Source of the DNA: Trichodelitschia bisporula
Lineage: Eukaryota > Ascomycota > Dothideomycetes > Phaeotrichales > Phaeotrichaceae
Assembly (NCBI GenBank): GCA_010356995.1
Contig: ML996687.1
Location: 1,335,148-1,399,147, forward strand
Direction of reading: 5' to 3'
DNA length: 64,000 nt
Part shown: positions 5,326-64,000 of the stretch, in pieces
Position numbering within the stretch: the stretch's first letter is position 1
Layout of the letters: the number at the start of each line of letters is the position of its first letter
Notes under the pieces: generated by a model
The model's input: the letters and a program-made list of their open reading frames with translations, nothing else
Database searches by the model: none
Told to the model about the DNA's origin: nothing
Made by a program: the position numbers and the translations under genes

Positions 5326-6583
5326 GGACGGGGTGGGCCTTAGGTGAGCGGTAAAGCATGTTCATAGTGGTTCGAATGAATGTGTTGGTTTGAGTTATTG
5401 CAGATAGTGCTCATTGTGCTAATCATCGTGAATTCGTGCATTGAGGCAAGTAGCTCCCTTACCGCCGTGCAGCTCGCTGATAGTGAACGCAGATGTGGCG
5501 GCTTTCACCTCTCGTCTGATATCGGTTGAGACACGACCGTGCCATCTCAACGGACCGAATGCCTCAGGCCAAACGCCGTCGACAAAGGTCGCTCGTTCGA
5601 ATCCCGCCACCAGGCCTACCTTTACGGCGTCTAAAAAGCGAAAAAGAGGATCCATCTAAAAGCTCCCGATGCCAGGATTCCAACGGCACCAAAATCATGA
5701 AAATGGACAAAAAAATGGGTAGCTTCTCTTTGATTGAGCGTGTCATCCTTAGTGCAGGGGCCATGCTAATCTTCTCTGTATCGTTTCAAATTGACCAAAT
5801 GCCCGAAGGCATCAGCTCTTTGCGGAGACTAAAATATGTACCACAACAAACCAACCATAGGTCTTAGGCAACCACCCACCTACACCTTTTTGATCCCACG
5901 GTCGCCGCAGTGAATCGGGCGATGATATTTGAGTAGATTCCCTTTTTTCCGTACATTCGAGAAAATTGCTTTTCGTCTCGACTTGCTGCTCCAGCTCCAT
6001 CAGCGCACACACTCGCCCCAGTGACCAACGCTTTCACAGCACGTCTTCACACCGCTTCGCTTCCAGCTACAGCCTCGCGCTTGATCAAATCCAACTGCAA
6101 ATCTACGATACCCATTAACTCCCACTCTCTTCGCGCCCAACTGTACATCCACTGCATCACCATCTCACTTCGTGGAAACGTACGATTACCAATTGGACTG
6201 ATGCTTTCAGACTCCGACCACAAGAGCCCTTGGCAGCCTCGCAAGCCCTGTCGTAAGAGAGCACACGACATCAGCTCGCGGATCACGTCCATCGCCAACT
6301 GAAGCTGCTCATCAATCCCTACGCCCACAATCTCCTCCACCTTCGGCTATGTATACCACTAAACAAGCCTCACACAGACACAGAACCCATCAGATAGAAT
6401 ACGCGCAGGACAGACTTCATTAAACACGTAGAATCATCTCGTCTACCCATCCACCACACCTTATGTCCGGAGAACAGACATCATTACACGTGTAGAATCC
6501 TCATTTACCCCCCGACCCCTCAAACACCAAAACACCAACGCAAAGCCCACGTTACAAGGGGTATAAACGCATCCATCAGTCCA
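5326..6583. other. Intergenic with a tRNA-like B-box trace
   Basis: I see no protein gene. Around 5588-5610 a GTTCGAATCCC string resembles a tRNA T-arm, and GTGGCGG at 5495-5501 can pair with CCGCCAC at 5604-5610. The T-stem itself pairs poorly and no clean cloverleaf or anticodon arm could be drawn, so this is at best a decayed tRNA or tRNA-derived sequence. Confidence 0.3.
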
Positions 6584-23651: not shown

Positions 23652-24452
23652 CTACAAAGGGCCGTCATACGGACCGCCAAATCCCGGACGACCAAAGCCC
23701 GGAGGACCGTAACCGGGACCACCGAACCCCCGAGGGTCAAAGCCAAGCGGCCCGCCAAATCCCGGAGGTCCGCCAAATCGACCGGCCCAGGGATAGCCCA
23801 TCAAGTCATCGTACTCATCTTCATCCTCAAAATCGTCATAATCATCGTAATCGTCGAACACAAGCGGGTAGCCATACCCCAGAGGCCCAGCGAAACGAGG
23901 ATCACCCCCATAGGGACCACCGGGCATGAGCCCGCCGGGTCCATATCTACCTGGACGCGCACCGGTGGGGCCGCCAAAACCGGGAAGACCGTCGAAGCCG
24001 GGTGTGCCGCGGCAACCGAGGCCGGGAGGACCGCGAGCGTTGAAGCCAGGAAGGCCGCCGAAGCCGGGAGGGCCACGGTCATTGAAGCCAGGCTGGCCAT
24101 GGCCACCGAGGTTAAGTGGACCACGGCCACCAAAGCCGGGTGGACCACGGCCACCAAAGCCGGGTGGACCACGGCCACCGAGGCCTAGAGGGCAATCAAA
24201 GCCAGGAGGGCCACCGAAACTTGGACGACCACCGAGGCCGGGAGGGCCGCCAAAACCGGGACGACCTCCGAGGCCGGGAGGGCCGCCGAAGCCCGGGCGA
24301 CCACCGAAGCCGGGAGGTCCACCAAAGCCGGGGCGCCCACCAAAACCGGGTGGGCCGAAGTCATCGAAATTGTCTTCAAAGAGCGGGCCAAACTCATCCT
24401 CGTCGTCATCCTCGTAGGGACTGAAGCCGGGAGGGTATCTATTGCGATACAT
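23652..24452 (-). CDS. Gly/Pro/Phe-repeat protein (PPGFGG repeats)
   Basis: A single-exon frame of 266 residues. It opens with an Asp/Glu-rich segment (MYRNRYPPGFSPYEDDDEDE...). Then come about 15 imperfect copies of GRPGFGGPPGFG-like units, a second acidic patch (FDDYDDYDDFEDEDEYDD), and a last set of PPGFGG units. There is no signal peptide or membrane segment. A TTTAAAAGG TATA-like element lies at 24566-24574 on the minus strand, about 115 nt upstream of the ATG. Composition suggests an intrinsically disordered protein; function is unknown. The reverse strand is also open over the repeats, a known artefact of such GC-rich repeats. A second gene of the same style lies at 26581-27030. Confidence 0.6.
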   Translation of the reverse strand: MYRNRYPPGFSPYEDDDEDEFGPLFEDNFDDFGPPGFGGRPGFGGPPGFGGRPGFGGPPGLGGRPGFGGPPGLGGRPSFGGPPGFDCPLGLGGRGPPGFGGRGPPGFGGRGPLNLGGHGQPGFNDRGPPGFGGLPGFNARGPPGLGCRGTPGFDGLPGFGGPTGARPGRYGPGGLMPGGPYGGDPRFAGPLGYGYPLVFDDYDDYDDFEDEDEYDDLMGYPWAGRFGGPPGFGGPLGFDPRGFGGPGYGPPGFGRPGFGGPYDGPL

Positions 24453-25009
24453 GGTTGGATTGGGAGAGAGATCTGTGGTAGTGTTTGTGGGATAGATGGT
24501 TGAGGAGAAGATGGAAGGCAGAGTAAGAGTGTGGATTGGTGGGAGGAAGGGGAGCCTGGATTCTGCCTTTTAAACTGCCGTTTGAGGGAATGAGGTGCGG
24601 TGTGACTCCAATCATAAGTTTGAATGACTCTCCGCGCAGTCACGAGCTATAAAACGAGTCTATAGAGCTCAAGCGTTTGAAAGCTGAGTGCATGTGATTC
24701 GATATCCGTGAATGACCATATCGGATCAGTAGGATTTACCGATGTCTCCAAAAACCTCTGAATGACCAAAACCATGGGGAGGCAGGATACCCATTGCCGG
24801 GATCTTCTACTCGGGGAATGAGGTCTGGACCGTCAGTACGGCAGCATGCTGTTTGAGGAGAGAATGCATTCAAATGAGAATTGTCACATCCAAAGCATCT
24901 CTGACTAGCTGCTTCAATCCCATTTATTGGGAGTGGCCCTGTACAGGTGCAATGGCATCAGTGTTAACAGAATGTTTGAAATCGATAACGAGAAGATAGA
25001 GAGTCAGAG
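24453..25009. other. Intergenic between Gly/Pro gene and inverted-repeat arm
   Basis: Holds the promoter of the minus-strand Gly/Pro-repeat gene. No other gene is seen. Confidence 0.4.
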
Positions 25010-25955
25010 ACTCTCGCAAAATGGTTAAGCGCCCAGCAGACTGCCAGCAGTCAATCGAAGGAGAATCACAGTCACCAGTTCAACTGGGAAGTTGATAAGG
25101 ATGGCGGTTGAAGCTTCATCCTGGCTGGTATCTTGAAGCATATGCAGTCTAACTATAAGGCCCGTCTAGACTAGTTTCCATTTGCCTGGCAGCACTTCCA
25201 CCGTGCTCACTCGCCGCTCCGTTGGTCATCGCTTCGCAGCTTGGATCGCATCCATCGCCCTAGTTTTGTTAGCTAACTGGCGTTGCTCTTAGGGCCTAGC
25301 TATGCTTACCGGTCACTCTTCTCCTCTTTATTCTTCTCCTGCTGGCGCTGGCTCCACCACTTGCACTCAGTACACGGCAGCGGCACCTCCCCGGGCCTGT
25401 GCCCGTTTCAACAGCCGAGCTTGCTGCCGGGCTGGTTGCAAATGTGGTCGAGGCCGTAAAAGCGGTGTTCGCAGGAGAATACGTAGGCAACGTATTTGCA
25501 AATTGTTCTTGCGAGGGCGTGTTGGTGCAAGGTGTGGATGAGCTGGGTTGTTGTAGATGTTGTTGAGGTTGGAGAGTAAGTTTTGTTGAAGCTTTGCGGA
25601 CGTGTTGTTGTTTTCGTAAGTAATGGTGAGCTCCTGCGGCTGGCCTTGGAGTATACTGTGTAGATATATCTTGACGAGGAGGACGTGTTGGCGGCAGCCT
25701 TGGGGCTCCGCCGTGGACGTGCATCGTATTATAGGCCTGACTAATGGTACAAAGCCCCTTGAAGGTATACACCACTCGCACGGACTATGCTCCGCAGTTC
25801 TTATGGTTAAACGATTAGTATGGTTGGTTGGGCCAGGCCGGCAAAAGATAGGTATTTGCTCCGAATGCCTGAGATATACCTCCCTTTTATTGCCGCCTAC
25901 TACAAGACTTTGTCAAGTTTGCCGTCTTCTGTTTGGAAGCAAGCAAGGGGAGGTA
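25010..25955 (+). repeat. Left arm of a ~1-kb inverted duplication (degenerate gene copy)
   Basis: This segment matches the reverse complement of 27640-28635 along its length. Matching landmarks: CACAGTCA..AGTTCA near 25070, GATGGCGGTT at 25102-25111, GTTAGCTA..TGGC at 25267-25281, ATGCTTAC.GGT at 25302, GAGTATACTGTGTAGATATATCTTG near 25650, and CTCCGAATGCCTGAGATATACC near 25860. Encoded frames also match: LLLLALAPPLALSTRQRHLP and GELLRLALEYTV here correspond to LLLLAAPPPFALRARYRHRL and GELLRLTLGYTV there. This copy has stop codons inside the shared frame, one being TAG where the partner has CAG (C-to-T, as repeat-induced point mutation would give). A good branch site/acceptor (GCTAAC...CTCTTAG) at about 25270-25293 is shared in position. 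Confidence 0.75.
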
Positions 25956-26179
25956 TCTCAAACACATACGCGATGCCCAATGTCCTCCTTGGCTCTCTCC
26001 TCTTGTCATATGTCATGCCTCTAGGGTGTGCCTTCCTGTGCTGGCAATGCACCTTCCTGACATATCAATATGGTCATATATGCCTTGGTGTCTCATTGCC
26101 TTATGTGCCCATATCACCATAGTGCGATGTCGCTCCTGGTGTGATATTAAGGAGTGGTATGTCGACCTTAAGACTAACA

Positions 26180-26335
26180 TCAGATATAGTTACCCGGCTC
26201 TTCAGTATGATTACCCGATCTTTGGAGTGGGACTACCCGGTCCTTGGATTGGGACTGCCCGGTGGTTGTGTAGAACTACCTGGTTCTAGGAATGTGATTA
26301 CACTGTTGTCGGAGTTTTATTACCCGGATCCAGAG
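26180..26335. repeat. Degenerate short tandem repeat
   Basis: Five to six imperfect units of roughly 22-24 nt, built around ACCCGGTCTTTGGATTGGGA (for example GATTACCCGATCTTTGGAGT, GACTACCCGGTCCTTGGATT, GACTGCCCGGTGG). No coding role is apparent. Confidence 0.5.
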
Positions 26336-26580
26336 GTATCACCATAGATTTCCGTCTGCGAGACGCCTCCTCCGGCTACAAAAGAGTATGGAACCCCAAT
26401 ATCATACAGGCAACCTCAGAACTTCAGAAAAGGGGGAAGCGAGCCCTGAGCCGTAGCACATTTGCACATAACATCAAAATGGGTGAACCTTTTTATCATT
26501 ACGAGCTGCCTATCTACCTCGACAACTGTAATCTCAGTAGATCAAACATCCCCGTTGATCAGAGCGAGATCATGAGCTCG

Positions 26581-27030
26581 CTAGATCCAGAAATACCCTG
26601 GTGGAGGTGGGGGGATGAACATGCCGGGCGGTATCCCCGGAGGAGGATGGAGAGGGAGCAACATACCTGGGGGCATCCCGGGAGGAGGAGGGAAGAACAT
26701 ACCTGGCGGCGGTCCACCCATCCCCGGCGGCCCGCCCATACCCGGAGGACCACCCATTCCTGGCGGCCCGCCCATACCCGGCGATCCGCCCATACCCGGA
26801 GGACCACCCATACCCGGCGGCCCGCCCATGCCCGGAGTGCCACCCATGCCCGGCGGCCCGCCCATGCCGGGTGGGCCACCCATACCAGGCGGCCCGCCCA
26901 TGTCCGGCGGACCACCCATGCCTAGCCAATCCACCATACCTAGAGGGGGAGGGGCGGGAACTAAAATAGGACCTTCAGGGCTAAACACCCAAACGAGACC
27001 CCCTGGAAACGGAGGAGGCTGACCTGCCAT
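26581..27030 (-). CDS. Gly/Pro/Met-repeat protein (PPGMGG repeats)
   Basis: A single-exon frame of 149 residues starting at ATG 27030 (MAGQPPPFPGGLVWVFSPEG...). It has about ten copies of PPGMGG followed by Pro/Met-rich PPGMPPGM and PPPPG runs. A CATATAAAAGG TATA element at 27151-27161 on the minus strand sits about 120 nt upstream. That spacing is nearly the same as in the PPGFGG gene at 23652-24452. No signal peptide or known domain is present. It sits inside the spacer between the two arms of the inverted duplication. Probably disordered; function unknown. Orientation is chosen because of the TATA element, the start codon and the similarity in style to the other gene. Confidence 0.6.
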   Translation of the reverse strand: MAGQPPPFPGGLVWVFSPEGPILVPAPPPLGMVDWLGMGGPPDMGGPPGMGGPPGMGGPPGMGGTPGMGGPPGMGGPPGMGGSPGMGGPPGMGGPPGMGGPPGMGGPPPGMFFPPPPGMPPGMLLPLHPPPGIPPGMFIPPPPPGYFWI

Positions 27031-27639
27031 GTTAGAGCGTACTTGGTTTTGATTTTGAGGGAGAGTTTGACAAAGGTGAGATGTGGATGGAGTTCGGACG
27101 ATTTCGCAGTGTTGATGGCTGTGGAAATGAGAAGGAAGGCAGAGATGATTCCTTTTATATGCCTGATTTAGTGAAAGATTAGTGGTGAGGCTGTGAACAG
27201 ATGGGACAGTGAACATCCCGTGATGATTGGGCTTGGTGAAGCTACTCGTATCACGGCCCTATGTATTCACCTCAGCCAATTCACCAACATAGAATATGTC
27301 AGGGCGGCAAGCGGGAACAGCAGGATTCTCAAAGCAAAGAAACTTACCGATGAAGTACACTAGGTACGTCTACGTTCTTCCACGAGCCCTCCCCTTTCCG
27401 CAGTTTCATATCGCGAGCTGAGCATGGGGCAAAACGACAAGCCTAACACTTCGACGAAGCCCACGACTTATAGCCATGAGCTTATGCCGAAAGACGGATG
27501 GCGTACAGTCACCCGCGCTCGAGTGCTATCACCCTGAGAGAATCTAATCATCGTCGGTATACTTTGTGGGGGAACAGTCATTTTCATTGTGGTCAGGTGG
27601 ACCAGCCGGGCAAACTTACACAACCACAACCACCAAGAT

Positions 27640-28635
27640 GTGTCACATATACGCCTCCAAACAAAAGACAGCAATCTTGGGGGAAGTCTTGTGATGAGCG
27701 GCAATAAAGGAGGGGTATATCTCAGGCATTCGGAGTGGGTACCTCTCTTTTATCCGGTCCGGTCCAACTGACCCTCCTGGTCACTCTACTATAAGAATAA
27801 ACTGCGGCGCAGAGTCCATGAGGCGGGTGTACACCCTAGGGGGCTCGGTAGCATCCATCTCACCTACAACAAGATGAGTGTCCTCGGAGGCCGCGTGCCC
27901 CGGAGCCTCCAGACAATCACCGCCTCGGCAACCTTGCCAAGATATATCTGCACAGTATACCCCAAGGTTAGCCGTAGCAGTTCACCCTGATTTGCTATCA
28001 CGATAACAACATCCACGGGCTCCAGCCAAACTTCCTCTTCCATATCCACATAATTCACAACATCCTCGTGCAACCATCGCGTCCACATCTTACAACCACA
28101 ATCGCCTCGAACAAAAAGATGTGCAGATACGTAATTTACATAGTCCCTTGCCACCACCGGTTCTACATTCTCGATGAGATCTGCAATCGGGTCGGGTCCA
28201 AAATCTGGTGCTGGAACGGCCACAGGGCCGAGACGGTGCCGATATCTTGCACGGAGCGCAAATGGTGGAGGCGCCGCCAGCAGCAGGAGGCGACGGAGGC
28301 GTAACCAGTAAGCATGACCGGGGCCTTAATAGAAATGCCAGCTAGCTAACACAGCCCAGGGCCATAGATGCGGATTCGAGCTGCGCGGCGATGGCAACGG
28401 TGGCGGACGATAACAACGGCGGCGGACGAGTACGAAATGTGGAAAATGTTGTGAGGCAAGTGGAGACTCCATAGGACCGGGAGTTAGAGTAGATGCTGCT
28501 TTCCAGTATTAGCAGAATCAATTCCTAACCGCCATCCTCATCAACTCCCGCATGTGAACTGTTGACTGTGTTTCGCCTTGAAATGATAGTTTGGTGGTCG
28601 CTGAGCGTTAAACCATATCTCCGTCTTGCGCAAGT
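27640..28635 (-). repeat. Right arm of the ~1-kb inverted duplication
   Basis: Reverse-complement partner of 25010-25955 (see that entry). The arms are about 1 kb and clearly diverged, with small indels; the spacer is about 1.7 kb and holds the PPGMGG-repeat gene. I did not find matching target-site duplications or a transposase frame. Confidence 0.75.
27864..28316 (-). CDS. Unknown protein encoded in right arm
   Basis: The minus-strand frame is open from about 28316 to a stop at 27864. It encodes RRLLLLAAPPPFALRARYRH, then GPVAVPAPDFGPDPIADLIE, PVDVVIVIANQGELLRLTLG and YTVQIYLGKVAEAVIVWRLR. The Leu-rich start could be a leader, but no ATG lies in this frame; an intron acceptor just upstream (shared with the other arm) suggests the start is in an earlier exon. 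I recognise no family. Codon-level agreement with the left arm, despite much DNA change, argues that this frame was once under selection. Confidence 0.4.
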   Translation of the reverse strand, partial: HAYWLRLRRLLLLAAPPPFALRARYRHRLGPVAVPAPDFGPDPIADLIENVEPVVARDYVNYVSAHLFVRGDCGCKMWTRWLHEDVVNYVDMEEEVWLEPVDVVIVIANQGELLRLTLGYTVQIYLGKVAEAVIVWRLRGTRPPRTLILL

Positions 28636-28981
28636 ACATCTGCACATCGATCGCTCTGGGATTAAGGTGGCCAAAAGTTCGATGTCGATTCCGTCGCATA
28701 AGACTAGCGGCGCGAAAGGGGCGACAAAATGGAGCGCTCACCAGCGCACCAGCGCGTCATGGCTTAGTTCTAGCTCTAGTGGTCGTGGTGGTCCAGTCAA
28801 GCTTTTGGGTCGTAAAGTAGAGTACGGTACTGCGTAGAGCCAATCCCAGCACATTCCGACGGCCATGGCTCGGACCACCACCTCAAGAAAAAGCAACAGC
28901 CGGCTCAACAGATGATGAAAAGGCAAGGTCCCGTCTCCAAACTCAATCCCGCTAAGGGACTTTGTCTGAAGTCAAAAAAAA
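28636..28981. other. Intergenic next to tRNA-Asp
   Basis: No gene is seen. A run of eight A at 28974-28981 is the likely pol III terminator of the minus-strand tRNA-Asp. Confidence 0.5.
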
Positions 28982-29053
28982 CTCTCCCGCCGGGAATCGA
29001 ACCCGGGCCGTCCGCGTGACAAGCGGAAATCATGACCACTAGACTACGGAAGA
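28982..29053 (-). tRNA. tRNA-Asp (GTC)
   Basis: The minus strand reads TCTTCCG for the 5' acceptor strand, pairing with CGGGAGA at the 3' end (one T-G wobble), plus discriminator G. The A box is GTCTAGTGGTC, the anticodon arm TCCGC-TTGTCAC-GCGGA with anticodon GTC, and the T-arm CCGGG-TTCGATT-CCCGG. It is 72 nt with no intron. An eight-T pol III terminator follows immediately. Confidence 0.95.
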
Positions 29054-29296: not shown

Positions 29297-31575
29297 TCAA
29301 ACAATCGTGATCTCGCGCCGCAGCATTCCAGCATCAGTATGATACGCTTCCTGCTCAGGCAGCGGATCATACATAATAGGATGCCGATGCGCTTTCCCAT
29401 CCGCCAACCCGTGTGGCCGAATCCGTCCCCGGAGCGTCATCCGCTTCCCCAGTTGCTCCCACGACGGCTTCCTTAGCTCAAGATCCTCGGCGCAGTCGTA
29501 CCCGAACCACGCACAGTCGTAGATCTCCGCATACCCAACCCGCCGGAATTCGTCATCTTTTTCTGTAGGGAGCACTGCGAGTGCATGGACAATCTGCCGG
29601 TACACGCCGCGGCGGTTGAGTTTCGGCGTTGTGGCTATCGCGACGAACGTCACTGGTGTCTGGGGCGAGATCATCTCGTCCGGCATCCATTGTCCGGGTA
29701 CGGCACAGACTGAGGAGCGGAATCGCGGCGCCTTGCTGGTAAGGAGGAGCATTGTGTCCAGGTCCATCAGGCGGACGGGTACCTTCCGGTCAGGCGCATT
29801 GTAGCGCAGGCCTTTGCCCTCGAAGAGTCGAACCGCCTCGGCGACTATACCGGGGTCTTGATTGTGGACATGCATGATACGGGTATCTGCGCGGAGGGTG
29901 ATGGAGCCTGACGGATCATGGGGATTGTTTGCAGTCGAAAGGTTGACGAGCTCGCACGCCGGATGGACTTTGCTAAATGGGTAAAAGGTGATGCGGTTGG
30001 CGAAAGAGGCCCAAGACCAAGACGGAGCTGTAGTGGGAGAAGCCCGTTTGGGGAGGTCCGCTTGCTCATGAATGTGGACCGAGGTGTGCATGGCAGGATT
30101 AGGCAAGATGGTGGACTGCAGGTACCAGAGCAACTCGCGATGATAGTGCTCTTTCCACAGCCCGGTGGTGTAGAGGGACTGAATCCTGCCTCCAACCGCC
30201 TCGGCAACACCAGCGATTGCCACGAGGCGATCACTGTACTGTGTCAACTCTCTTGCCATGTATTCCTGCACAACACTATGCCACAAGGAACACAGCGTGT
30301 CCGAGTCGAAGGTAAAGCAGGCGTTTGAAGTGGAATTGGCACCATGTTCCTCGAAGATGGCAATCTGTATATCTCGTATGTCGCTGCTGTGTCGCATGAT
30401 TCCTTTTTCAGGATTCCGTTCAGAGCCGTATGTTGTAAGGCACTCCCACCGGAGACAATCGGGGTCAAAAATCAACGTCCGCGGCGACAGAACCAGCTCT
30501 TGCAGCGTCCAACCTCGAGAGTAGAGCGGGAGGTCTTGCACATCCCAGGGAACCTCCGGGATCCCCATCGGTATGAACAAGGCGCGCTTTTCTCCGCTTA
30601 TATACGCAAATGCAACCTCAAACGGCATGATCCGCAAACCGTTTCGCTGTCGGAACAGCCCGCCCATAGAATCCGGAGAATGAGCAGACGCTATTGTGAA
30701 TGCAGCTTTTTTGTATATATTGCACATTTGAACAGACTCTGCTTGCCAGTCCTCCTTCGAGTCTTGGATGATGCACAAAGAATCTATCCAGAGGTAACGC
30801 TCCCTCATGCGGCGGGTGACAAGCACAGCATCGCGAAAGACCTTTGGGATTTCATTTAGGGGAATTCCGTTCATTCGGTCTGCAAGAGTATCGCTTTTTG
30901 TGGTGAGGGTTGGCGTTAAGCCCCAACGGTGGCTCAGGGCAACATACGATTTCTGGTATGGCTTGAAATCCGGAGTTCTGGTGTCGACAAGGCGTGGGTC
31001 TTCCGTTTCAGAGCCAACATCGATGACCCGTGAAGGAATAAACCCGTCCTTAAACGGCTTGGGACAGTTTTTGTGGCCGGTACAACACTCTTGCATCCAA
31101 AAGTCGGCCATACGGAAGCTTGCTTCTGATCCCGTGTTCTCGTTTGGAAGTTGGGCGCATTCTTGAAGTACTTCAGGAAGCCCTTTCTGCACTTACACCT
31201 CCATGAGCTTTTATAACTCCTGGAGGTACAAAACATACCGGAATCCGCCCAGCCATAGAACATTCCCGTCGTCCGCGGCTGAAAGAGGGGTTGCCCGCTG
31301 ATATCGGCGAAGGACGCCCGCAAATTTGGCATATTTTGGTCGGGCTTCAGTTCCAGAGTAACCGTTGATTCATCCGTCAGCTTCTCTACCTCGTGCGGCC
31401 AGAGGCTGTGCCAGATGTTCAAGCATATCAAACATCGTGCCTCAGCACATCGCTTGAGCTCATCAGCATGATGGAGGGAGAACGAAAAATTTGGCCAAAC
31501 GAAGGGCTCCCCGGGTTTCTGATCAGAGGAAGACAGAGCTTGCGCCGCAAATTCTTGACATTTGCGGCAGAGCAT
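29297..31575 (-). CDS. HET-domain (heterokaryon incompatibility) protein
   Basis: Minus-strand exons 31575-31239 and 31191-29297 encode 743 residues; the 47-nt intron has a GTATGT donor and GTGTAAG acceptor. The N-terminus (MLCRKCQEF...) has the Cys-rich start and CLICLNIWHSL segment usual before HET domains. The HET domain begins at SYVALSHRWG and contains FRDAVLVTRRMRERYLWIDSLCIIQDSKEDW, MCNIYKKAAFTIASAHS and LYSRGWTLQELVLSPRTLIF. A long C-terminal region has no other domain that I recognise. HET proteins trigger cell death after fusion of genetically different hyphae; this one carries no NACHT, WD40 or ankyrin part within its frame. The gene lies in the accessory part of the window beside retroelement relics, where such genes often sit. 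Confidence 0.9.
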
Positions 31576-35782: not shown

Positions 35783-36926
35783 GAGCCGATGCCGAAGTGC
35801 CGAAATGCTGAAACAGGGCCTCCCTAAATGGCTTCATCAGCATCGAGAATAAGAATCTGGAACTTCGGGTACTCACCCATTTGAAACCGAGGGTATGTTG
35901 CTTCTATGCAGGCCCGGCCTCTGTTCATATATATTGCTGCTGTTGTGATGATTCATCGTTTGCGAGTAGCGATTCTTCGACGCGAAATGTGAATAAACTG
36001 GACGAAGCTGCCTCGCGGACGCCGGCGTTCAACGGGAGAAAAAGAGAGAGGAGCCATCGCAGGCAATGCAGGCAATGCAGACCATGAAAATGACAGGGAT
36101 GAGGGAGGTAATTATAGTAACGGAAGCAGTGATGGCGGAGAAGATGATGTTAACCGGTTGTGCTGAATGAGAGTTTTGAATGGTGGTGTTAACTGAAGTT
36201 GTTCAAGGTGCCCGTTCGTCAACTCAAAAACTTCGTTACGTGCCTTTGGGTTGAGTGAGAAGGCTCGCTGCGGGGTGGAGCAGAAGCGGTCAACGACTTC
36301 ATCGAACTTGGCCCTGTTATAGAACAAGGCTGCCTTCGGAGCACGTGGGTCGTCCTTAATCAACTGGGAGACACGATTCCAGGGCGCAAGGGTTGCTGGA
36401 GTATGATGCTGACTGATGTTGAGGGATGAAGCAAGAGGAAGAAGTTGGAGCAAACGGTGGGATTTGAAGGAGGGGGATGACACAAATGACCCCATTTCTT
36501 GGCAACGATTGCTGCTTTGGGTTTGGCAGCTCAACAAAATGGCCGTTTGGTGAGCGGGGTAGTGAGGGGCGATCTTCGGGGTCCAGGGGAAGGGAGGAGG
36601 GAAGGTCGCAAGTTCTGGGAGCTTGACGTCAGACTTGTAGGTGAATGCTCTTAGAGCATGCTGTAAAGCCCAGGGCGGGTTCGAAGATCCAGCATTAGCA
36701 GTCTTTCGTAGTTCCTTTTTAGTGTGCAATGGTAATGCATGTAACTGGCGGCATACGGAGATGGACAGGACGAAGAAGAGGGCAAAGCCAGGACGCCGGA
36801 GATTTCAAAGAGTATCTGCCCACTACATTACAAGCACCATTCTTGATCGTCTCACAAAACTGTGTTTGGTCTTCGTCTCTCCAAGAGAGTAGATCGTTCC
36901 AAAAAGCTTCCATTCCTTGCGACCGC
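35783..36926 (-). other. Gene-poor stretch with an unrecognised minus-strand frame
   Basis: A minus-strand frame ending at 36112 encodes, from about 36500, MGSFVSSPSF..., then NRVSQLIKDDPRAPKAALFY, NRAKFDEVVDRFCSTPQRAF and EVFELTNGHLEQLQ. This looks like real protein rather than a chance frame, and the FELTNGH string is like pieces of large fungal NTPase-type or orphan families, but I cannot assign it. It may be a decayed fragment. The rest of the interval is featureless. Confidence 0.3.
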
Positions 36927-39900
36927 TTACTTGTCATGCTTCGGCAGCGGCGGCAAGTCGCCAGTAAATGTGATCTGCATAGCTGCAAACCGTCAGTAAA
37001 CCGTCCCACCCACAATTCACAAGAGCACTCACACAGCGGAAACGGGAAATAACTCCCATGATCCTCCTTCATATACACATAAAACCCCCCAGGGCGCGGA
37101 ATCTTCTTCAACTCCCCCCTCGGCCCCGGCGCCCTCTTCAACCCCTCCAACCCCCCAACAACCTTCAACATCGCGGCGAGCGCCACACGACTCGCATCCC
37201 GGCCCAGACACGTATGCGGACCCACGCCATAGTGGATATACGCGTCGAGCGGACGCGTCGGATCCACCTTCTCCGGGTGAGGGAAAATCTTCTCGTCCTT
37301 CGCGGCGCCGACGAAGGATACGAAGACTTTGTCGCCGGGCTTGACGTGTACGGACCGCCCGCCGTCGTCGATTGTCTCTGTGACGCACGACTCGCGGTAC
37401 GAGCCGAAGGTGCCGTTCAGCCGGATCCCTTCCATGGCATAGTGCAGCAGCGCATCATCCGCCTCAGGGGTGTCCAGCTTCGCAAGGCGGTGGATCTCAG
37501 GCAAGTGCTCGCAGCCGGGGTGCGAGAGGTAGAAATCCAACAACTGGGTAAACACCTGCGCCTGGTTCGGCACCATGGCCGTCGCGGTGGGGAACACCTG
37601 GCTCCACGCCGTGTCCTCAGGCGACAGGCCCGCCTCGAGCAGGCGGCGGATCATGTGCACGCCATACTCAGACAGATAGTGCTTGTTCTCGCGGAAGGAG
37701 TCGGTGAGACCTGAGATGAGCCCAGTTATTGCGACTGATTTGACGTTGGCTTCGATGAGCTTGCCGAGGGGCGCGGCGATGGCTTTGGCGGCCATGTGCA
37801 GGGGGAAGGATTTGGCGGGGTCGAGGTCGAAGAAGACGCAGGTGAAGATTACGGCGAGGGCCATGTACATTTCGTGTTCGGAGAAGATGCCGCGCGGGTT
37901 GTCGGTGGATTTGAGCGGGAGGTTGAACATGCGGGAGGCGAAGTGGACGTGGGCGAGGTTGCCAACGTCGCGGGTCACGTCGACGAAGTGCTTCCCGCCG
38001 ATCTTGTACGATTTCTCGTGCAGGAGCTTCAGTGTGATGTACTCGTAAAACTTCTTGACGTCGCGATGCCAGTTGTCGCGGTAGAGCGACTTGGACATGA
38101 TCTCCCGCTGCTTCGAGTGCGCAGGAGTGTCGCCGGACAGCATGAACATGCCTCCACGCTTGCCCATCAGCTCCTCCAATGTCTTGCCCCACGTCACCTT
38201 GAAGTCCTGCTGGCGATCTAGCACCGTCTTTGCCCCCAGATACGTCGTGAGATTGACACGGGGCGGGATAAATGCAGGGCGGTCATACGAGTAGTGCGAC
38301 TCACGACCAAGACTGCGCATGATCTTGCGGTTTTCCGACGGAATGGTCATGGGATAGTGGGCGTAGATGCTGTTGGGCGTAAAGTGATTGGGGAAGGCCT
38401 TAAGGAACAGCTTGTAGAAGACACAGCCTTGTTCGATGTTGAGGTCATACTGGACTTCGTTGAAGCCCCAGCTGGGGTATGTTAGCAGGTACAGTGTGCA
38501 ATGAGAAGAAGACGTACTTGGTGAGATTCTTCGCATGGTAATCAATGGTGTAAAACCGATCGCCACGGACCAAGCATACTGCATCTGACAGAATGGCGCG
38601 CGAGATGGTGAACGTCGGTGCAATACCCACGCCCGGTACCATCGGAGTCTTGCATTCCTCGGCCACGATGCCGGGGTACATCTCGACAAAATCCGGATGT
38701 TCGTACAACCGCCGCAGGTTCTCCGAAATTTCGGGATCCGAGTTGATGCTCTCAAATGTCTCGTGAGGCGTAAGCCCAAAGAACTTGCGGAACTCATTCA
38801 GAGTCCCCAGGCCCCATTTGCGGGCTTGAATCATGCCGAGGATTTCGACAGCGCGGAGAGCCTTCGGTACGTTTTTAGCGCCGAAAGAGCCTGGCTGGTT
38901 AGCAGAATGCGGCTAAAACTAGGGAGTAACGAACCAGAGCAATCATCGATGCTGTCCGCCAGAATATTGACCAGATCGTCATCATTATACTTGCCATCCG
39001 CGCCCCGCTGCATCTTCGCAAACGGCCGCTTAGACGGATCCGGATCCAGGCTCTTCGCCCACTCTGACAGGCCGGCCAGGAGATCCGGCATAGGCACCTC
39101 ACTCGCTGGCTTGCCAAACATCTCCTTGTACATTTCCTCCGTCCAGGCTTCGTCACGCTTGGACGTACAGGAATGCCACCGGTACACCAGGTTGAATTCG
39201 GCAGACACTTGATTTCCGACACCGCGGGGCGTTCCGTCCTTGCCGAACATCTTTTCCATGTGCACGCGCGGATCCAGCGACCAGGTTGTGTTGCTGCGAT
39301 TCAGGTTGACAATGGTGCGAAGGTAGTCACCCAGCGTGATGTTCATGTACAGACCGCATGTAATCAGCCGACCCGTCTGGAACAGATCATTGTCATATTT
39401 CGCCCAGGCCTTCTTTACACGATCCGGATGCAAGTCCGCGCATGGCTTCGTGAAGCGACCGTTCTCGTTGATCATCGCCAGCTGTTCGACAACATAGTTA
39501 TGGAACCGGTTGAACATAATCAAGAGCACGCCGCAGCCGGGTGGAAAACCCAGCATGCGCTCCTCAGAGAAGCAGTCTGGCTTGAGCTTCCCGTCCTTGA
39601 AGGTGCGGATCTGGTCCTGGTCGGCCTGGACATCACCATAGAGCGGCGAAAGGTCGAGGTATGACGAGGTGTTGCTCATGCTAAAGTCATGATGATCGGT
39701 CTGGAAGAGGTCGTGAATGATGAGTGACGCCCAGTAAAACAGAACACTGGAGACGTTGTTCGGATGCTTCTTGAACTCCGCGCGTGCGAAGATGCTGTCA
39801 AAGACCAGGCCGGGGTCAGGGAGAGCGCCAGGTTGGACAGTGAGGGGCTGAACGCTGCGCGCATACGGGGTTTTTGCCGCGCCCAAGTGGGGGAACATGA

Positions 39901-40591: not shown

Positions 40592-42261
40592 GATGAGGAT
40601 GATTCGTAAAACGAGCAATGCAGAGAAGGAAGCTACCCAGGCGGGGATATGAATACCTGGGACCTCAGCTGCCCCTCATATGCCGCGCTTCGTGCATCAG
40701 AGCTCCGAGCTCCCAGCCTTCCAAAAGCAATATTCGACCCGCTCCCAACCCCGCCGCTAGGCGCAGAGCGGGGGTCATCTCTGTTCAACCGTTGTACCGT
40801 GCGACGGTGCTCGCATATCGCCCAGCAGGAAATGGCGCACAGCGTGTGACGCCCCGCAGGAGAGTTGCACGACCGGTACCGTACTAGAAGAGGCTAAGCA
40901 ATCGTCTGCATATCGAGCTGAGGCAATTCAGGTGGCCTGCATTGTGTGGAGACGGTGCGGCTCACAAAGGCATGGAGCGGGTTGGCAGCAAGGATGCGCA
41001 GGACAACACCTGCAGCTGAACGGACCTGATGGAGCGGAGATTTGGAGGCTGCACACCGATCAGCTGGAAGGGCGGTTGCTATGGTCGTCACTTGTACGAG
41101 TGTCGTTGAATGAACGGCCTGTACTACCGATGTGTTGTTGTCCACCTTTAAGCTATCTCAGCAATCGGTTTTGTGTTCAATATCCACGTCAACTGGAGTT
41201 CACCGCACTTCGTGAGCTGGCCAGCCAGTTCGCAAGGAGCCATTATCCAGCTGCACGGCTTGCCTTCTCGGCCAACGAAGTCGATAAACTAGGGGAGCAG
41301 CATGCTTCAAAGGAGCGGGGCTCGGCTGCACGAGTCCCGACAAAACTCTCAATATGGACAGGACGTGCACGACTTGCTGCATCGCGCTGCAGGTCGGTGA
41401 GTTTGGTGCCAATCGGAAGACCAAGCTTGCGAGGAACGGGCGGACATCAGCTGAAACTCAAGCTGAAAAGGTAAAAGCGAGAAGGATGGCAGGCATCGTA
41501 TGAATAGCGCTTAAGGTCTGTCGGTTCCATGGAGTTGCATACGGATGTACGGATGTACTGAAGGAAGAGTTTGCGCTGAACGACTTGACGTTGACGAAGT
41601 TCTGGAACTCGTGGGCGGATTCCTTCCCGAGATAGTGGCTGGCTGGAGCCAGGGTTTGACGGCGCATGCCGTTGCGGGGGTCTCCCGATACGGTAGTGAT
41701 CAGCGGCATCTCGACCGGGTATCGAAGCCACCCGTGCCCGGATGAAGTCGTTAATCCTGGGGGAACCGCCCTGAGTTAGCGGGCGATTACCACGGGGATG
41801 CGCTAAAGTCAACTTCAATGGCTCCTATCAACCAAACAAAGAGAATTTGATCCGCAAAGATGCATGTCCAAAATCCCGATTCGGCACTCCCGCTTTCGGC
41901 TCGGCAGAAGCTTAACCTCACTTCACCAGTCCTCACATCGGGCTGCGATACCGTGGGACATGGGCATGAACCAATGCCACTTCAGCTCCCCACCATTCGC
42001 CTGTCCCTGCTCTGCTCCAATAATTCCGCTATATGTCACACAACCTCCCGAACGAATCTGCGGTCACCCGCCGCCAGTGGCGCGTACTCCATGCTGCTCT
42101 GCCGTCCGACATCCATGAGTTGTCGACCCCCCCGCTCGTTGCCCTGCATCATTCAGCTCCATGGGAGGAGATATGTATACGGACCGGCGACCAGCTGAGT
42201 TGCAGCTCCCCGCACTCGTTGGTTGTCTTAATTCTCCGCTCTTGATTTATCGCCCAACGTG
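40592..42261. other. Long divergent promoter between ppo and DUF2235 genes
   Basis: About 1.7 kb with no supported gene. The length and divergent layout would allow complex regulation, but I recognise no specific operator. Confidence 0.45.
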
Positions 42262-44241
42262 ATGGAAGCGTTCCATGTAAGCGATGCTCAGACGAGCAAT
42301 GTCGAAGACTTCGCATCTGAAAACCGACCGCGGAAGTCATTCGTGCTCTGTTTCGACGGCACGGGGAACGAGTTCTCTGGCACAGATTCAGACTCCAACA
42401 TCCTTAAGATATTCCGCATGCTGGACCGCAGCGAGGAATCTCAATTCCACTACTATCAGCCCGGCATTGGGACATACGTTGAGTGCAGCTCGCTTTCGCA
42501 TACCGGGAAGATCGAGCAACTGAAGTTATGGTACAAGAAAGCCAAGGACTCGGCCATCGGAACATCCTTCGACCACCATGTTATGGGAGGATACAAGTTC
42601 CTCATGCGCTACTACAATGTCGGCGACGACATCTACCTCTTCGGCTTCTCGCGGGGCGCCTATACCGCGCGCTTCCTAGCCGAAATGCTCGACCACGTCG
42701 GGCTGCTCTCAGCTGGCAACGAAGAGATGGCACGCTTCGCCTGGAAAGCCTTCCAGAAATGGCAATGCCGAACGGAGCGCACCGAAAAGGAAAGGGCGCA
42801 GAAGAAGTACCTGCTCAACTTCATGTTTGCCTTCCGCGAGACTTTCTCTCGTCCTGTGCGGAGGATCCGCTTCCTTGGCCTCTTCGACACGGTCAATAGC
42901 GTCCCAAAGTTCGAAAACGCCTGGATGCAGCGCTCAAAGTTTCCCTATACGGCTCGCAGCTCAGCGAAGGTTATCCGCCACGCCGTCTCCATTGACGAGC
43001 GCCGCGCCAAGTTCCGCCAGGATCTCATTTCGGAGGTGAAGCGGCACGATCCGACAAAGGAGGGGCATCACCATGAAAATAGCGGCCTCGCATCGGAAAA
43101 GAAGACCGAAAAGGAGTCCCAGCCACCACGCGGCCGCAAACTCGCCGTCCCCTCAGCCTTCCGCGACGCAGCTGAGACGGTCGGCATACGCTCCCTGTCG
43201 CCCAATCTTTCGCTCTGTGACGAAGACTGTGCCTCATCCATTGCCTCACATGACTCGATGGCGGCGGTGCAGCGCGCCAAGCGGTCTAACACACATATCT
43301 ACGGCGACGATCCTCCGAGCGAAGAGCAGGATATTTTGGAAGTGTGGTTTGCGGGATGTCATGCGGTAAGTTTGCTCTGAGTACCCAGCAGCAGCCCAGC
43401 ATGGTAAACGTTTGGGCAATGCTGACCATTTTCTCAGGACATCGGCGGAGGCTGGACTCTCGATGTCGCTCGCGGCGAGCGCATTGCCCTCTCACACGTC
43501 CCGCTCGTCTGGATGGTACGCGAGGCCATGCATGCGGGCCTGAAATTCGATCCCGTCAAACTGCGTGCTCTAAACTGCGCACCCGAGGACCAAGACCCGA
43601 ACATCTTTTCAGCCGACGTCGCAGACGCCGTGGCATTCCGTGAACAGGCACGCGTCCCCACCATCAACATAGACCCCGGCTCGCCGGAACCGGAGAAGGG
43701 CGCCAGGGGGCTCGACGGCACGGTTGAGCCCCAGACGCCTCAGCCACAGGGTCAGACAATGCGCTCGCGCTTCCACGATGCCTTACACACCGCTGCTATG
43801 ACTGGGCGGATCCACGATATGTTGAAGTTCCGGAATGGATCGCCGGTGCCCTCGGTTATAGCGTGGAATATCATGGAGTATCTGCCGTTCCGGCGGATGG
43901 ATCTGCAGGAAGATGGGTCGTGGGAGAGTATCACGTGGCCGCTGCCTAAGGGGGAGGTGCGTGATGTGCCGCTGAATGTGTTGGTGCATGGGAGCGTGAT
44001 CCGGCGAATGCAGGCGGATGAGAAATACAGGCCTGGGAATTTGATTGTTGGTGGTGGAGGACGGGGCGTGCGGAAGGCGCCGCCTCATCTTGGGACAGGG
44101 AAGTGGAAGATAGTGAGGGAGGAAGGTGATCCGGTTGGCGAGCTTTGGGTCAGAGACTGTGAGGGCGACGAGAAAGCGGCAAATGGGGCTAATGGGACGT
44201 CGAAAGCGAAGAAGAAGAAGGACAAGAAACATAAGATGTAG
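42262..44241 (+). CDS. DUF2235 alpha/beta-hydrolase protein
   Basis: Exons 42262-43365 and 43438-44241 (intron GTAAGT...TTCTCAG) encode 635 residues. The DUF2235 start RKSFVLCFDGTGNEFSGTDSDSNILKIFRML is followed by YYQPGIGTY, the HVMGGYKFLMRYY segment and the nucleophile motif YLFGFSRGAYTARF (Ser130, GFSRG). Further family marks are FLGLFDTVNSVP, RHAVSIDERRAKFRQDL and, across the splice, EVWFAGCHADIGGGW, with the likely catalytic Asp/His region. A ~100-residue Ser/charged insert interrupts the domain before EVWFAGCHA. The C-terminus is Lys-rich (KAKKKKDKKHKM). DUF2235 is related to bacterial Tle1 phospholipase effectors; fungal members are presumed lipases of unknown substrate. It is divergent from the ppo oxygenase. 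Confidence 0.9.
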
Positions 44242-44846
44242 CTTGTGATGGGAGCAGAGCTCTAACACAGGAAACGACAACTGTGTAAACTGAAGATTGA
44301 AGTGGGAGACTAAGAGAGGAAGAGAGAAAGAGAATCTCGGGTCTTGAATACACCATGCCAAGTATCATCCTTTGCTCCTTCCTCCTATCATGCGCTCATT
44401 ACATCATGACCCTTAGTATGCGCCTTCCTAACATATCAATGCTCCTTCCCTGTCCACATCAGGTTGTTTGCTCGGTAGCACTTGAACCGCTCCCACCTAT
44501 TCCCCAGACTCGCACATACTCATCCTGAGGGAGCAGTAATCGGTCACTTGTATATCGATGGATTTTAAAATGTCATGCACCGCATAGCAACTGTTGGCGT
44601 AACGATCAAATTGGTAATCTAATTGACGATAAAATCTCTACACCAAATTCAAAGGACTAACAGTCTGTAGATGCCCTGAACAAGTATCGAGCCACCGCCC
44701 TCAAGATTCACCATATAGATCGCTGTCACTGTCAATGTGCCTCTGGCGCTGGGCCTGGGCCTGTCGCCGTGTCCGTGTATGCGTCGCTTTGCTACACTGT
44801 CAGCATATAAACGTAAATCTCAAATTGCGTCAGGCTCCCTTACCGC
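44242..44846. other. Intergenic, convergent 3' ends
   Basis: No gene is seen; it separates the 3' ends of the DUF2235 and RPB11-like genes. Confidence 0.5.
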
Positions 44847-62949: not shown

Positions 62950-64000
62950 GCTAGGAGACCCAAGTAAGTTATACTCGGCTTCTGTGGTTTCTGTCACTGA
63001 TGCCCAGGCCGACGTGTACTTAAAAAGCCCTTCATCTGCTTTCGAGGCCGATGAATACCGTATCTTCCCCCACCACATCTTGCATTGTCTCGGCTTATTG
63101 CTTCCATGTACTCACCTTCCATCGGGGGCTGCCCGCGTCACTCGGTTGACATCCAGACGGAATCGGTATCCCGTACCTTTATCAGCATACGAACACTTGC
63201 CGATCGGCTCCTGGGCTTCGAGAACCGAGTTCAAATATCTGTTCACCGGTGCTTGTACATCCAACATACTCTCTTCTTTTGCCTCGATAGCCTTGTGCAG
63301 TGGTCAACCAGCTTGTAACTTCGGGAAGCCCCTGATACTCGGTTGCCTGTGCCCGTCTGCAACCTCATCTTCGTGGACAACACATCATGATCGAGTACTC
63401 TTCAACCTCTTTTTTTGCATTGCGTGATATCGACATGACCTTGGGCGATGTAGAGGCGAGGAAGGAGCAATGCTAGACGGGAAGGAACAGGAAGCACTTT
63501 ATGTGCGGATAGATTGTGAGCTTCCCATATGTGCTCAGTTGCTCTAGCCATCAGCCGGGTATTCACCTCTGATAACATAACTGGAGAGCTGTTAATGGTG
63601 CGTTTTTGGGTCAGAATCTGCAGTCTCTTGCCCCGTGCTTCGTTTCAGCATCTACGGTCCAGTTGCTCCTTCCACTTGAAACATCCCTTCCTTGTTCTCA
63701 CACTCCATTGACGTCTTCAGCAGTCAGTGTGAATTTCCCGCCAATACCCCGCACGCTTTCCCGACAGTTGTCTAATGTCAATATATCACCTGGCTGATAT
63801 CACTTGGGAGACATGCGGAGAGAAGATCAATCATCATCATGCACCCTTCGCCAAGCCCAATCTATATGAGTTCCAAAGTGCAACGACCCTCTCGTGACGG
63901 CTTACGCTAGGGAGACTGCACAAATCATATGCATTATCGCCTTCGGAATGCAGAGTGGCATCAGGGACCGGATAATTGTGCCCTGCCAATGCTTGTTCCA
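62950..64000. other. Right-end region without a supported gene
   Basis: Begins with the 3' region of the aminotransferase gene. Remaining frames have no domain or clear splice sites. Confidence 0.45.

Follow-up and report, generated by a model that had tools for sequence, protein, structure and literature searches.

The two arms of a mirror-image duplication in the 64,000-nucleotide stretch of DNA analysed here (the window) were found by alignment to be homologous copies of one ~0.94 kb segment lying in inverted orientation. As judged from the sequences on either side, it is the left arm alone, and not the whole 3.6-kb unit, that forms a discrete ~939-bp insertion into an older element (Table 1). 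With moderate confidence, we explain this arrangement as a local, inverted, duplicative insertion, presumably made by break repair at or near a palindrome with the right-arm segment as its donor. Overall, the locus has the look of routine genome wear and not of a working element. No account of this locus was found in the parts of the literature covered by our search.

Table 1. Coordinates of the two arms, the interrupted element and neighbouring features (window positions)
Feature	Position	Strand	Basis or remark
Element 5' half, ending in palindrome GAGAGTCAGAGACTCTC (24999-25015)	24925-25015	+	Profile; start by joined-flank alignment
Possible 5-bp target duplication CTCTC	25011-25015	+	Pairs with ATCTC at 25955-25959, 4/5; weak
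Left arm, inserted copy	25016-25954	+	Right-arm homology; bounded by the halves of the interrupted element
Element 3' half	25955-26067	+	Profile; end by joined-flank alignment
22-bp tandem repeat, spacer	26212-26263		
PPGMGG-repeat ORF, spacer	26581-27030	-	ORF list
Right arm, second copy, inverted, possible source	27638-28640 (outer end approximate)	-	Homology 28616-27653
149-aa open frame in right arm, no ATG start	27864-28313	-	No Pfam match, no protein relative
tRNA-Asp	28982-29053	-	
HET-domain protein	29297-31192	-	

A lenient alignment of the left arm with the reverse complement of the right arm yielded 722 identical columns out of 962 (75%) and a score of 660, with an outward extension to 24960 whose outer portion is at background level. 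The same comparison with 200 shuffled right arms gave a mean score of 38.5 and a maximum of 61, while other chunks of the window reached at most 72; the ~1-kb inverted duplication proposed in the initial annotation is thus borne out. Within the insert, the homology joins 25021-25940 to 28616-27653, where 668 of 889 aligned bases are identical (75.1%) across 38 gap events, and BLASTN of the arms returned 68% identity over 981 columns (gap columns counted) at an E value of about 1e-71. Measured per 50 columns, identity climbs at ~25018 and drops to background beyond ~25966, so the arm coordinates first assigned hold to within some 10-20 bp, and the peptide matches that had been quoted between the arms are likewise present. 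The K2P distance of 0.307 between the left and right arms supports the original description of an old inverted segmental duplication.

The insertion itself was recognized from what surrounds the left arm. A profile of a dispersed repeat family, built without the interrupted copy in the window, matched on both sides of this arm, at 24920-25016 (E 2.7e-8) and at 25965-26069 (E 9.2e-8), on one strand and in collinear order; when the profile was trimmed, element positions 13-94 corresponded to 24935-25016 and positions 89-205 to 25955-26058. Joining the two flanks gave an element copy identical to the consensus at 153 of 199 positions (77%) with a score of 136, compared with scores of no more than 1 for 20 control chunks. 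Because collinear halves of the element lie on both sides and their joining restores an element copy, the left arm is an insertion between them. The interruption falls at the 3' edge of the 17-bp palindrome of the element, and the limits of arm homology, which were located independently, lie within ~15 bp of both element junctions. All 18 of the other loci with an exact palindrome continue beyond it and so serve as empty sites, and the profile found no match at the right arm. The relative age of the insertion can be estimated as well, since the host copy lies farther from its consensus (JC distance 0.276) than each arm does from their common ancestor (0.153 per lineage), suggesting that, if rates are equal, the insertion is later than its host element; the average for 44 other element copies is 0.128, a value that leans low because many of them were fetched as best matches.

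The interrupted element belongs to a family that is recognizable throughout the genome. With its middle base left free, the palindrome has 19 exact occurrences and a reversed control has 0; allowing up to 2 mismatches raises these counts to 120 and 3, although a few of the 120 places may have been counted once per strand. A search with 301 bp taken from one palindrome locus yielded 40 scored matches among 189 candidates. We examined 61 element loci, among which some places were fetched twice, and 44 copies align as a dispersed 216-bp element with TG...CA ends and the consensus TGATGGG...CCACATCA. An exact 5-bp duplication flanks 13 of the 44 copies and one matching at 4 or more of 5 bases flanks 23 of them, while random re-pairing of the flanks gave on average 0.38 and 1.81 such copies and never more than 4 and 6, respectively. 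As these duplications are far above random re-pairing, the 216-bp element is a genuine inserting element. Solo LTRs are recognized by TG...CA ends together with a 4-6-bp target duplication, and both are seen here; judged by its ends, the element is probably a solo LTR. Since no pair of copies with a common interior was found among the examined loci, a miniature DNA transposon with the 5-bp ends TGATG/CATCA is a possible alternative. Neighbouring direct copies do exist at four loci (L024, L032, L072 and L074), with interiors that are not common between loci. At L032, three copies stand in direct order within 792-2394, and the intervening sequences are partly similar (70% over 176 columns); because its two interiors match each other, this locus looks like a tandem array. 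Elsewhere in the window, the profile detected a full-length, uninterrupted copy at 44 kb (44246-44462, plus strand; 219 bits in L046), which is flanked by GCTTG and GGTTG (a 4/5 match), as well as a weak hit for the element's 3' part at ~63.4 kb (63394-63489, minus strand; E 0.017), either a fragment or chance, and a chance-level match at 14.4 kb (E 4.7). The family should be useful for repeat annotation in this little-studied fungus.

Given the position of the insertion, we also considered whether the palindrome GAGAGTCAGAGACTCTC might be a recurrent point of breakage and insertion, with neighbouring DNA pasted at its 3' edge and local inverted duplications seeded in this way genome-wide. If true, insertion at palindrome edges would link short palindromes to local inverted duplication, although we regard the idea as quite improbable. 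Among the 12 loci with one mismatch in the palindrome (L063-L074), the element copies of L070 and L072 end at profile positions 93 and 99, that is, at or within 6 bp of the edge of a palindrome located at about 1501-1517, and a second element half was not found in the ~1.4 kb examined beyond either one. The same pattern can arise when loci are fetched by their palindrome and local alignments stop at conserved blocks, and it is therefore only a hint. The copies at L065 and L071 end elsewhere (positions 185 and 155), and the copy at L053 (1355-1674) is split by 105 bp that follow position 175, at a distance from the palindrome. The 18 exact-palindrome loci all continue, and there is thus evidence against a hot spot as well.

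We then considered the copy number of the arms and spacer in the genome (25.65 Mb on 30 contigs). Judged by one match, this is very probably the genome of the dung fungus Trichodelitschia bisporula (Dothideomycetes, Phaeotrichales), to which a protein 100% identical to the HET-domain protein at 29297-31192 is assigned. Genome-wide, no third copy of the arm was found at E ≤ 10, with the best candidates scored and very common words skipped, and a search with the right arm plus flanking sequence matched the left arm alone at E ≤ 0.001. Besides the right arm, the search with the left arm returned a 64-bp match on another contig (C2), which covers the outer edge only and terminates in GAGAGTCAGAGACTCTC. 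The spacer occurred once in the genome search, and the DNA of 25000-28640 had no match among plasmids. These results bear directly upon the foldback-type DNA element suggested in the initial annotation, which would span 25010-28635. Long inverted arms do flank a spacer, but the two parts of the interrupted element enclose the left arm only, no further genomic copies of the arms were found, and the 4-bp repeats at the outer edges have an equal in 856 of 1000 randomly drawn site pairs. The foldback reading was rejected because the inserted unit is the left arm alone and not arm, spacer and arm together, and we consider it almost certainly wrong.

The main rival, which we view as rather unlikely, is that the arm is a low-copy, non-autonomous transposable element and that both arms are separate insertions. 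The left arm is indeed a discrete insertion with clean edges, and its junctions can be read as the 5-bp duplication CTCTC/ATCTC, taken from the overlap of profile positions 89-94 across both sides; this possible duplication also counts against a templated insertion, as it would fit a transposon too. However, junction direct repeats of the same quality turn up at 834 and 838 of 1000 randomly chosen pairs of sites, no third copy of the arm was found at the threshold given above, and none of the frames tested had a transposase-like or other family match. Inverted matches between the ends of an arm were short, at best 4 bp for the left one and 6 bp for the right one, the latter without a chance control.

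It had further been proposed that the duplicated segment was an unknown gene. In support of a protein gene that was duplicated, with both copies or the left one alone now pseudogenes, the right arm contains a 149-aa frame whose left-arm counterpart is broken by 2 in-frame stops within the corresponding stretch, and dN/dS is 0.61 in the 3' part of this frame. Against it, dN/dS is 1.11 in the 5' part, the frame has no ATG, and the stop-free run to which it belongs (153 codons, 27867-28325) is reached in length by 79 of 1000 shuffles. None of 200 scored candidates from the protein collection matched the frame at E ≤ 10, neither Pfam nor viral contigs yielded a relative, the best PDB match had an E value of 0.28, and a structure model was uninformative (mean pLDDT 37.5). 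A single 26-residue Bradyrhizobium match among genome contigs (E 4e-6 relative to candidates) was judged to be a low-complexity chance match. Nei-Gojobori dN/dS across six frames and five stretches did not point consistently to constraint; its minimum, 0.37, lies on the minus strand at 25300-25510, where 2 codon pairs contain stops. The left arm also has an antisense stop-free run of 181 codons (25370-25912, minus strand), a length that only 8 of 1000 shuffles attain, but each of three stretches has 3 stops among the codon pairs of that frame, so the right arm does not keep it open. The 149-aa frame is probably not a gene, and a decayed gene duplicate strikes us as clearly unlikely, a reading that in any case conflicts only with our account of what was copied and not with the insertion itself.

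On the sequence evidence, we read both arms as decayed, and the duplication is old and probably non-functional. RIP mutation of the duplicate was considered and rejected, as the rates of C-to-T change at CpA were 0.099 and 0.115, the lowest and second lowest of four contexts. At Rfam gathering thresholds, nothing was found at the arms. In the most conserved block, one of four foldings, that of the right arm plus strand, had a z-score of -2.71 (2 of 200 shuffles as good), the other three giving -1.38, -0.95 and -0.02, and a two-sequence RNA consensus contained 2 double-sided changes in 20 pairs. The right-arm fold is a 15-bp imperfect hairpin at 27645-27760 (plus strand) that beats 198 of 200 shuffles, with a left-arm z-score of -1.38. 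We also weighed an inverted-repeat locus in which a read-through transcript would form long double-stranded RNA and feed RNA silencing. Between 81 and 83% of aligned arm positions could pair when G-U is included, with a longest run of 33; yet the divergence fits neutral decay, since the longest identical run of 22 was reached in 666 of 2000 simulations, and the genome searches turned up no further target for the arm sequence. Accordingly, we hold such a function to be very improbable.

The features around the arms look like bystanders. The spacer does hold the PPGMGG-repeat ORF and the tandem repeat, as had been described, while the tRNA-Asp, which was said to lie immediately beyond the right arm, is actually ~340 bp outside it. 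The PPGMGG ORF had two protein matches (E 3.3e-7 and 1.1e-4), with only Gly/Pro/Met repeats in common. It is one of two Gly/Pro-rich ORFs with 18-bp-periodic repeats near the left arm, the other being a GPPGFGG-repeat ORF at 23652-24452 (minus strand) and its own repeat reading GPPGMGG, and neither has a Pfam match. Farther away, the window contains a U6 spliceosomal RNA gene at 5711-5810 (minus strand; 91.8 bits), adjoining haem peroxidase and cytochrome P450 domains that share an orientation at 36719-39898 (minus strand), a pair that we take to resemble a Ppo-type fatty-acid dioxygenase, and a protein with a Tle1-like phospholipase catalytic domain (PF09994, 294.6 bits) at 42259-43380 (plus strand).

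Returning to the templated insertion that we favour, we infer both the break-repair mechanism and the right-to-left direction of copying. A break would have occurred at or beside the 17-bp palindrome of the element and would have been repaired by copying ~0.94 kb from the right-arm locus, joined in inverted, after which both copies would have decayed. The inner ends of the inverted arms are ~1.7 kb apart. The locus is a clean worked example of how a relic interrupted by a mirror-image duplication can provide both the boundaries of an insertion and its relative date, and a duplication that resembles a mobile element was resolved in this way.

Compared with known systems, the locus shares with foldback (FB-type) elements its long inverted arms around a spacer, but differs in that one arm is the inserted unit, other copies were not found, and the outer duplication is at chance level. 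The interrupted host resembles a solo LTR in its length of 216 bp, its TG...CA ends, its 5-bp target duplications and its dispersal, and differs in that neither a full-length parent nor paired copies with a common interior appeared among the examined loci. The arm itself is most like a templated, duplicative insertion made during the repair of a double-strand break. At ~0.94 kb, the arm is rather long for filler DNA, but clear transposon hallmarks were not found in it, and it has the form of a nearby segment pasted at one point with its donor apparently retained.
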